From Clostridia bacterium (lineage in GTDB: Bacteria > Bacillota > Clostridia > Oscillospirales > CAG-272): DNA of 51,821 bases. Numbering within the stretch: position 1 is the stretch's first letter; every line of letters starts with the position of its first letter. The position numbers and the translations under genes are program-made. Positions 27,904 through 28,982 of the stretch are shown here, in pieces. The stretch is taken from contig JAFVQU010000004.1 in the NCBI GenBank assembly GCA_017504625.1, forward strand, positions 1 through 51,821, in the 5' to 3' direction. Under the pieces are notes generated by a model. It was not told where the DNA came from, ran no database searches, and worked only from the letters and a program-made list of their open reading frames with translations.

Positions 27904-28449
27904 ATGAAGACCAACATTATCGGCAGACAGCTTAACGTGTACGAAGACACAAAAGAGCTTATCAACGAAAAGCTTGCCAAGCTTGATAAGTATTTCGGCG
28001 GCGAGGGCAGTGCCACGGTCGTCCTTACTCACAAGAGAAATCTCTCCACTCTGGAGATCACTATAAAGGTCTCAAACACCATCTTCCGCAGTGAAGTCGA
28101 CGCGGATACCTTCCGCGACGCGCTTGACCGCTCCATTGAAAATATCGAACGCCAGATCAGAAAAAATAAGACCAAGCTCCGCAAGAAGCTGCGCGAGGGC
28201 GTAATTCCCGACGGTGAGATCGCGATGGCATCCATCGGCGACGAGGCTGAGGGTGAAGAGGAAGAAAAGGACATCATTATCAAGACAAAGAAGTTTGAAT
28301 ATACTCCTATGTCGGCAGAGGAAGCAATTATGCAGATGAACCTGCTCGGACACACATTCTACGTATTCAACGACGCGCAGACCGAAAAGACCTGCGTGGT
28401 ATACAAGAGAAAAGACGGCAACTACGGCCTTATCGAGCCTGAAAATTAA
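27904..28449 (+). CDS. hpf: Ribosome hibernation promoting factor, long form
   Basis: 181 residues from ATG 27904, which follows AGGAGG closely; the longer frame adds 21 unrelated residues. N-terminal domain (about 1-105) binds the decoding centre of the 30S subunit (MKTNIIGRQLNVYEDTKELI, basic helix RSIENIERQIRKNKTKLRKKL). An acidic linker (EAEGEEEEKD) leads to the C-terminal dimerisation domain (about 125-181: KKFEYTPMSAEEAIMQMNLLGHTFYVF). The long form joins two ribosomes into 100S dimers in slow growth. Regulated by the unusual promoter upstream, shared element with dnaA. Confidence 0.95.
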   Translation: MKTNIIGRQLNVYEDTKELINEKLAKLDKYFGGEGSATVVLTHKRNLSTLEITIKVSNTIFRSEVDADTFRDALDRSIENIERQIRKNKTKLRKKLREGVIPDGEIAMASIGDEAEGEEEEKDIIIKTKKFEYTPMSAEEAIMQMNLLGHTFYVFNDAQTEKTCVVYKRKDGNYGLIEPEN

Positions 28450-28473: not shown

Positions 28474-28673
28474 GCGTGATACTCCAAGCGGAGTATCACG
28501 CAACTCTATTCGCCTTTGGCGAGTTGTATTGCTTCGCAGTGATATTCGGCTTACACCGAGTGATATTTGCTACGCAAGTTTGTGGCGAATAGAATATCAC
28601 TGCAAGGTGGAGCCTTGCAATATCACTTCCTGTAAAGGAAATATCACTCTTTGCGTCAGCAAAGAATATCACT
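28474..28673. repeat. Array of six AATATCACT 9-mers with hairpin spacers
   Basis: Begins with a perfect 12-bp hairpin (28474-28485 / 28490-28501, loop AAGC) and an AACT...CGCC-TTT-GGCG-AGTT hairpin. Then the 9-mer AATATCACT appears inverted at 28538-28546 and 28559-28567 and direct at 28593-28601, 28619-28627, 28640-28648 and 28665-28673. Each spacer is itself a different small palindrome (for example TCGG/CCGA, TTCC/GGAA, CTTTGC/GCAAAG). No open frame of note. Intergenic, between hpf and its terminator, so it may be transcribed as the hpf 3' untranslated region. Function unknown; not a CRISPR. Confidence 0.8.
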
Positions 28674-28681
28674 TTTATACT

Positions 28682-28737
28682 AACAGAAAAAGAGATAACA
28701 TTTCGGCTACAAACCGATTTGTTCTCTCTTTCTGTTT
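28682..28737 (+). terminator. Long terminator hairpin after the hpf/array unit
   Basis: AACAGAAA...AGAGA pairs with TCTC...TTTCTGTT at the far end, with a CGG/CCG sub-stem inside, followed by TTTTTATT. Likely end of the hpf transcript. Confidence 0.7.
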
Positions 28738-28758
28738 TTATTAAATTTAAAATATTTG

Positions 28759-28787: not shown

Positions 28788-28793
28788 GAATTT

Positions 28794-28970
28794 GCGACAT
28801 AAGTGAATAAAAGTGAGTTGTTAGGGAAAGTATACATTTTTACTTTGGTAAAAATGTATGCTCGGTTTTGTATGCTTTCCCTAAGATTGTTATATAAAAT
28901 TCACTTGTGTCGCAGCAATGAGTCATACATTTTTCGGTGCGTGGCTTCGGTTGCGCACCTTTTTATTTTT
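28794..28970 (+). ncRNA. Candidate structured RNA, 6S-like (or leader of the SLOG gene)
   Basis: Closing stem of 15 pairs, one G-U (28794-28808 / 28899-28913). Internal bubble of 12 nt (28809-28820) and 14 nt (28885-28898). Middle stem of 10 pairs (28821-28830 / 28875-28884). Apical stem of 13 pairs (28831-28843 / 28848-28860) with a TTTG loop and a 14-nt bulge on the 3' side. A rod with a central bubble is the plan of 6S RNA, which mimics an open promoter for sigma-A RNA polymerase; here the rod is 120 nt, shorter than the usual 160-200 nt. A terminator follows at 28936-28969. No coding potential. Alternative: a leader controlling the gene at 28983. Confidence 0.6.
28936..28969 (+). terminator. 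UUCG-loop terminator of the rod-shaped RNA
   Basis: GGTGCG (28936-28941) pairs with CGCACC (28954-28959); the inner part closes with a C-TTCG-G tetraloop; TTTTTATTTTT follows. Confidence 0.85.
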
Positions 28971-28982
28971 GGAGGAAACAAG

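Follow-up and report, generated by a model that had tools for sequence, protein, structure and literature searches.

Behind the hpf gene of a Clostridia bacterium, a short non-coding region repeats one 9-mer, AATATCACT, in both orientations and separates its copies by palindromes that differ from one another. This raises the question of what kind of element the region is and in which form, as RNA, as duplex DNA or as a folded single strand, it is read. The first-pass annotation had left four options open, namely a folded RNA, a cruciform-prone DNA site, a landing pad for a protein that reads the 9-mer, and a non-autonomous mobile element. Comparison of the window (the whole stretch of DNA analyzed, 51,821 bases) with other genomes favors mobile DNA with hairpins that are important at the DNA level, on the grounds of multi-copy occurrence, presence/absence differences and loop data; a folded RNA as the main function is disfavored by loop chemistry, by occurrence on both strands and by location behind terminators. 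We consider it probable that the window array is one copy of a mobile DNA element that is dispersed in intestinal Clostridia, neither codes for protein nor moves autonomously, and is read in the form of a folded single strand.

An inverted array of eight hairpins lies behind hpf

The array consists of eight hairpins joined by eight linkers, six of them exact and two decayed copies of the 9-mer, and its left half is inverted relative to its right half (Table 1). Six copies of AATATCACT, two inverted and then four direct, had been described at the outset, and all six are indeed within 28538-28673, with none elsewhere in the window. The accompanying claim that the 12-17 bp spacers are each palindromic holds for four of the five gaps between exact 9-mers (12, 17, 12 and 16 nt) and fails for the middle gap (28568-28592), which is a hairpin followed by GGCGAATAG. 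This last segment can pair with CTATTCGCC on the far side of the inverted units to form a long-range core stem. The perfect 12-bp hairpin that had been noted before the repeats is present as well, and because alignment with relatives brings out two decayed linkers, AACTCTATT and AGTTGTATT, between it and the exact copies, this first hairpin belongs to the array. The absence of CRISPR character was also correctly called: where a CRISPR has identical direct repeats and unique non-palindromic spacers, these repeats invert in mid-array and the spacers are palindromic.

Such repetition is not reached by chance resampling: a first-order Markov model of the 200-nt region, drawn 5000 times, never gave more than four copies of any 9-mer counted on both strands (0/5000), and when the contig was cut into 200-nt segments (step 50), at least four copies of a 9-mer occurred only in the three segments that overlap the array. 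The surrounding 301-nt region folds better than all 100 of its shuffles, both with the plus strand as RNA (z -9.5) and with the minus strand as DNA (z -10.4). As to location, the array follows the hpf stop (28449) and precedes a terminator-like hairpin (~28683-28739, recognized by eye and not by a terminator program), which agrees with the 3'-UTR position first assigned to it. No terminal inverted repeat was seen at the window copy. In the 13-row alignment with relatives (A1), the hairpins of the right half cannot be matched up column for column, and column-wise covariation was therefore left uncounted; listing the hairpins was the one way in which compensatory exchange became visible.

Table 1 Features of the hpf region and its hairpin array (window coordinates; an empty strand cell marks a feature without assigned strand)
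Feature	Position	Strand	Basis
hpf (long-form ribosome hibernation factor) CDS	27904..28449	+	Pfam PF02482 and PF16321 above cut-offs
Hairpin H0, perfect 12-bp stem, loop AAGC	28474..28501		hairpin at same position in relatives L142, L150-L152, L023
Decayed linker L0 (AACTCTATT)	28502..28510	-	aligns with AGTTNTATT in relatives
Core stem left arm CTATTCGCC	28506..28514		complementary to 28584-28592; conserved in 13-row alignment
Hairpin H1, loop AAA on AATATCACT strand	28510..28522		sequence
Decayed linker L1 (AGTTGTATT)	28522..28530	-	relatives have AGTGATATT or AGTTNTATT
Hairpin H2, loop GAA on AATATCACT strand	28530..28538		sequence
Linker L2, exact AATATCACT, inverted	28538..28546	-	sequence
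Hairpin H3, loop GTAA, T-G wobble at foot	28547..28558		sequence
Linker L3, exact AATATCACT, inverted	28559..28567	-	sequence
Hairpin H4, loop GTA on AATATCACT strand	28567..28577		sequence
Core stem right arm GGCGAATAG	28584..28592		sequence and alignment
Linker L4, exact AATATCACT	28593..28601	+	sequence
Hairpin H5, loop GGA, T-G wobble at foot	28602..28618		sequence
Linker L5, exact AATATCACT	28619..28627	+	sequence
Hairpin H6, loop GTAA, closed T-A	28628..28639		sequence
Linker L6, exact AATATCACT	28640..28648	+	sequence
Hairpin H7, loop GTCA, closed C-G (GNYA loop)	28649..28664		sequence
Linker L7, exact AATATCACT; right limit of recognizable array	28665..28673	+	sequence
Rfam Gut-1 match, 44.9 bits (cut-off 50)	28501..28571	+	E 7e-8
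Rfam Gut-1 match, 35.9 bits (cut-off 50)	28615..28697	-	E 1.3e-5
Terminator-like hairpin and T run behind array	28683..28739	+	read from sequence

The array belongs to a dispersed family related to Rfam Gut-1

The Rfam model Gut-1 (RF01706) matches the left half of the array on the plus strand and the right half on the minus strand, in both cases below the gathering cut-off of 50 bits. Gut-1 shares with the array a run of three hairpins connected through GUGAAAU-type linkers, and its match is significant on both window strands. Unlike the array, it is a single arm, reported as an RNA from the human gut, whereas here the arm is half of an inverted array that occurs in dispersed chromosomal copies with other linkers, the window copy being below the cut-off. 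Gut-1 thus describes one arm of the hairpin array.

Own-genome searches (genome G000) returned 14 Gut-1 matches at E<=10, five of them above the cut-off. Control genomes gave sub-cut-off matches in 9 of 14 at E<=10 and in 0 of 14 at 1e-5. Matches occur in 10 of 12 genomes of the genus (E<=0.001), in 95 of 146 sampled genomes of the family and in 58 of 391 of the class (both E<=1e-5), and the copy numbers per genome in the family and class surveys are to be read as "at least". The family is multi-copy in many genomes, differently placed in related species, and represented by near-identical copies within one genome. The search of the genome and its relatives, which had been set beforehand as a check, therefore found multiple copies and compensatory exchange rather than a lone copy in the species.

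Across loci the arrays share a common layout, which opens with a first hairpin and a weak linker, continues with three to four inverted units and a closing arm, and finishes in direct units. Linkers are of several types (GTGATAT, GTGAAAT, ATGAAAT, GTGAAGT, ATGATAT and others) and are identical in 77.5% of 1022 pairs within arrays vs 41.5% between arrays; for spacers the identical share is 1.6% of 555 pairs. Within an array, hairpins thus vary and linkers stay constant; the parser required linkers to be alike at 6/7 positions and at least two hairpins, and the palindrome and linker figures are therefore partly by construction. One-way arrays also exist (L021, L022, L143, L144, L148, L281), among them one of ~16 GTGATATT units (L281, G350:C86). 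One-way GTGAAAT arrays stand directly 3' of genes that by eye resemble BMC-shell genes (L143, L144), twice in tandem in genome G007.

In the portion consulted of Weinberg 2010 (PMC2864571), Gut-1 is graded as certainly an RNA and not cis-regulatory, is confined to the human gut and is listed among the non-coding RNAs. The confinement to human gut samples was not upheld: the hpf flank of genome G005 (L293), which has 14 Gut-1 matches, is that of a goat-colon MAG (L055), and to judge from this shared flank the two are probably the same genome. A published screen (PMC8040213) reports, in the part consulted, candidate RNAs on both strands of one region, most of them predicted as terminators, and that part does not name these hairpin arrays. 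Literature searches on Gut-1/RF01706, repeats and tRNA returned no paper that treats the arrays as DNA; for Gut-1 they covered open-access texts and returned just PMC2864571.

Arrays differ in presence between relatives and recur behind tRNA genes

Six copies in the genus genome G003 are 97-100% identical over ~230 bp and occupy different sites with different flanks. By eye they lie between imperfect inverted ends (AAATT..G..TTTA.CG), and ends of this type enclose further small elements of the genus as well (L161). The target-site duplications for which a test had been suggested did not turn up, as by eye no direct repeat is consistent across the six G003 copies. Several genomes of the genus contain small repeats whose ends resemble TTCAAATTTTGATTTATCGGTGAG (L161, L162, L168, L174 and the G003 copies), some enclosing hairpin arrays and some not.

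Of 86 hpf loci surveyed, each followed by 200 nt or more of sequence, one has an array, the window's own; some of these loci probably come from the same genomes, and the downstream gene differs, hence there is no clean empty site. Because the array is unique to the window among these loci, it would have been acquired by this lineage. An hpf-specific 3'-UTR device is disfavored as an explanation by the 85 other hpf loci that have no array.

A cleaner comparison comes from an 85-nt tRNA-Tyr gene that is 100% identical in 11 of the 12 genus genomes. Its 3' flank is readable in ten of them and holds an array in four (G000, G001, G003, G009) and a plain terminator in six. No two of the four arrays share a first hairpin, and their linkers are of at least three types; on these sequences we read the flank as a place of repeated acquisition. 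The array-free terminator of genome G004 also begins GAAAAAAGC, and therefore the first hairpin may be the target's own rather than the element's.

Many other arrays begin right behind a tRNA or tmRNA, where CCA is followed by a GAAAAAA..stem..TTTTTTC hairpin and then by AACGAAAT and the array. A search pattern limited to CCA and this hairpin hit 24 sites across 15 chosen genomes. A called tRNA or tmRNA lies immediately before 21 of them, and by a strict count an array comes next at 22. Beyond the high-scoring set the association weakens: near-tRNA loci make up 6/41 of the array loci in the genus set, vs 15/30 in the family set and 16/29 in the class set, with some duplicates and with tRNA-type GTGAAAT arrays over-represented, the loci being mostly the best matches to the Gut-1 model. 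All 58 of 58 tRNA-type arrays begin in the same orientation, a start that the search pattern favors.

Duplication of the tRNA end was considered as a mark of integration. A duplicated tRNA 3' end beyond the array (score >=14) was found at 1 of 49 array-bearing tRNAs vs 7 of 51 array-free ones, which weakens this idea, and the exact T-loop motif GTTCRA, present in 9 of 68 right flanks vs ~3% of random 60-mers, is a weak signal. Two loci (L274, L279) contain tandem array copies, each of which follows a tRNA 3'-end-like stretch ending in CCA. A phage origin was also set aside: in two pattern scans of viral contigs (104 stretches each), only 26 of 207 loci pass a loose array parser, and several of these are plain tandem repeats.

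Hairpin tips follow a DNA loop code on one strand

Loops were counted in 221 distinct hairpins with stems of at least 5 from 116 loci, a set in which hairpins are akin to one another, so that the counts are not independent trials. Read on the AATATCACT strand, GNA forms 79 of 125 triloops and GNNA forms 56 of 86 tetraloops (together 135/211), and the closing pair is C-G in 203 of the 221 hairpins; read on the other strand, the same hairpins have 0 GNA and 0 GNNA loops. RNA tetraloops prefer GNRA. Among the 56 GNNA loops here, 27 are GNRA; this is no preference and is the share that an unconstrained third base would give. DNA mini-hairpins tipped by GNA or GNNA, where N is any base, on G-C pairs are described as extraordinarily stable in the part consulted of PMC4686876. 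The hairpin tips conform to this DNA code, c(GNA)g or c(GNNA)g, when read on the AATATCACT strand and not on the other. Together, the free third base and the one-strand tips indicate the code of DNA hairpins rather than that of RNA, and the tips suggest that the arrays function as DNA folded in single-stranded form.

In the window, H2, H4 and H7 fit the code strictly and H3, H5 and H6 do so with a wobble or T-A closure, so that 6 of the 7 hairpins H1-H7 fit if these are allowed; H1 (AAA) and H0 do not. Folding energies were tried as a separate test of RNA vs DNA and do not discriminate, since the AATATCACT strand is preferred under DNA parameters (67 vs 7 of 214) and under RNA parameters (54 vs 15).

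These loops bear on the alternative that the arrays are a structured RNA, that is, that Gut-1 is a non-coding RNA or 3'-UTR element as published and that the window hairpins protect the 3' end of the hpf mRNA. We regard this as unlikely. The Rfam match on both window strands, the strong predicted RNA fold, the published grading of Gut-1 as certainly RNA (PMC2864571, as far as consulted) and the location of some arrays inside operons, for example behind the BMC-type shell genes identified by eye at L143 and L144, all speak for it; however, Gut-1 matches run in both orientations at one locus, GNRA is not preferred among the GNNA loops, the 85 other hpf loci manage without an array, and tRNA-type arrays start behind a T run that should, by our reasoning, end the tRNA transcript.

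Comparison with other repeats and recombination sites

A second alternative is a protein landing pad on double-stranded DNA, where the 9-mers would bind a nucleoid protein or gyrase, like enterobacterial BIMEs behind transcribed genes, and the palindromes would be secondary. Constant linkers would fit such a pad (the identity of 77.5% within vs 41.5% between arrays being partly by construction), as would the frequent position of arrays after tRNA or tmRNA genes, and binding of BIMEs by gyrase and IHF, cited in the part consulted of PMC2267715, is a precedent. Yet several linker types coexist in one genome, and nothing about a pad would call for a strand-specific hairpin tip in each spacer, which makes this reading rather improbable.

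The preferred reading, mobile DNA that is recognized as a folded single strand, has a close parallel in REP, BIME and REPIN sequences with TnpA-REP (RAYT). These are likewise dispersed intergenic palindromes, often in inverted pairs, and possibly mobile through strand-specific reading of single-stranded hairpins; in the arrays, by contrast, each hairpin differs in sequence and the linker is the constant part. The GTAG or CGTC tag beside the palindromes that defines a REP (PMC3733652, in the part consulted) is absent from the window array as read from its sequence. The Y1 transposase (PF01797) has 0 matches in G000 and is present in 38 of 146 genomes of the family, and its presence is uncorrelated with that of Gut-1, which occurs in 28 of the 38 genomes with Y1 vs 67 of the 108 without. 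Mobilization by IS200/IS605 or RAYT enzymes is weakened by both results. MITEs and modular repeats such as BOX and ERIC are small, non-coding, multi-copy and intergenic. The arrays share these properties, and the G003 copies lie, by eye, between what may be imperfect terminal inverted repeats, in common with other small elements of that genome; at the window and tRNA-type copies we found neither such ends nor a target duplication.

Integron attC sites are recognized by their folded shape, with few fixed bases and one active strand. We propose a similar recognition for the arrays, while an integrase, a cassette structure and attC core sites would set the integron sites apart. The corresponding alternative, that the arrays are themselves folded recombination sites that add cassettes behind tRNA genes, seems to us very unlikely. 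It would explain tandem array clusters with short intervening segments (L255, L272, L274, L277), and the part consulted of PMC8266576 has both attC and REP working through strand-specific single-stranded hairpins. Few of the segments between arrays carry an evident gene, however, and the clusters may be tandem duplications. Least probable is a passive product of template switching, in which quasi-palindromes are corrected during replication without use to the cell or a mobile element: such correction does yield perfect but ever-different palindromes, but gives neither constant linkers, nor a layout common to several genera, nor near-identical dispersed copies.

A proposed mobile element recognized as a folded single strand

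We class the arrays as dispersed palindromic mobile repeats with novel features, and we infer that they are read as single strands and mobilized in trans. Selection would act on the hairpins in the single-stranded or extruded form of the DNA, the constant linker and the strand-specific tips would be read by an enzyme provided in trans, and the element would spread into intergenic sites, favoring places behind terminators and tRNA 3' ends. In the window, it would have been acquired between the hpf stop and the hpf terminator. No transposase or integrase was tied to the array family, Y1 transposases being absent from its own genome and unlinked to Gut-1. For hpf itself we expect no specific role of the array and at most a side effect on the 3' untranslated region.

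More tentatively, and with some doubt, we put forward a wider proposal: the Gut-1 "RNA" motif may represent, instead of an RNA gene, the ends of mobile elements that form a new class. Such an element would be recognized as a DNA mini-hairpin array whose tips obey a GNA/GNNA code on one of the two strands, and a putative enzyme reading folded single-stranded DNA would repeatedly place it behind the 3' ends of tRNAs and behind other terminators in gut Clostridia. This proposal retains the hairpins and the covariation of Gut-1 but moves them from RNA to DNA. If it is true, one family now in Rfam as RNA would belong among mobile DNA instead, and covariation-based RNA discovery would gain a simple test, the third base in GNNA loops, for distinguishing selected DNA hairpins from RNA hairpins. 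The arrays, common as they are among gut Clostridia, would then also imply an enzyme, so far undescribed, that acts on folded single-stranded DNA.

Long nested hairpins occur near the arrays

Behind the array, positions 28788-28972 of the window form one long nested hairpin that bears side loops; its RNA MFE is -67.5 kcal/mol (z -8.4), a value matched by 0/200 shuffles. A TATAAT resembling a promoter element stands ahead of it, and a further hairpin with a T run comes after it. The segment, in which all Rfam families score below their cut-offs, is a possible candidate for a small RNA with a 6S-like shape. Genome G004 has another long nested hairpin, similarly laid out, next to a small mobile repeat (L161:1680-1900; MFE -87.4 kcal/mol, z -10.8), and comparing the two by eye, we would guess that they are akin.
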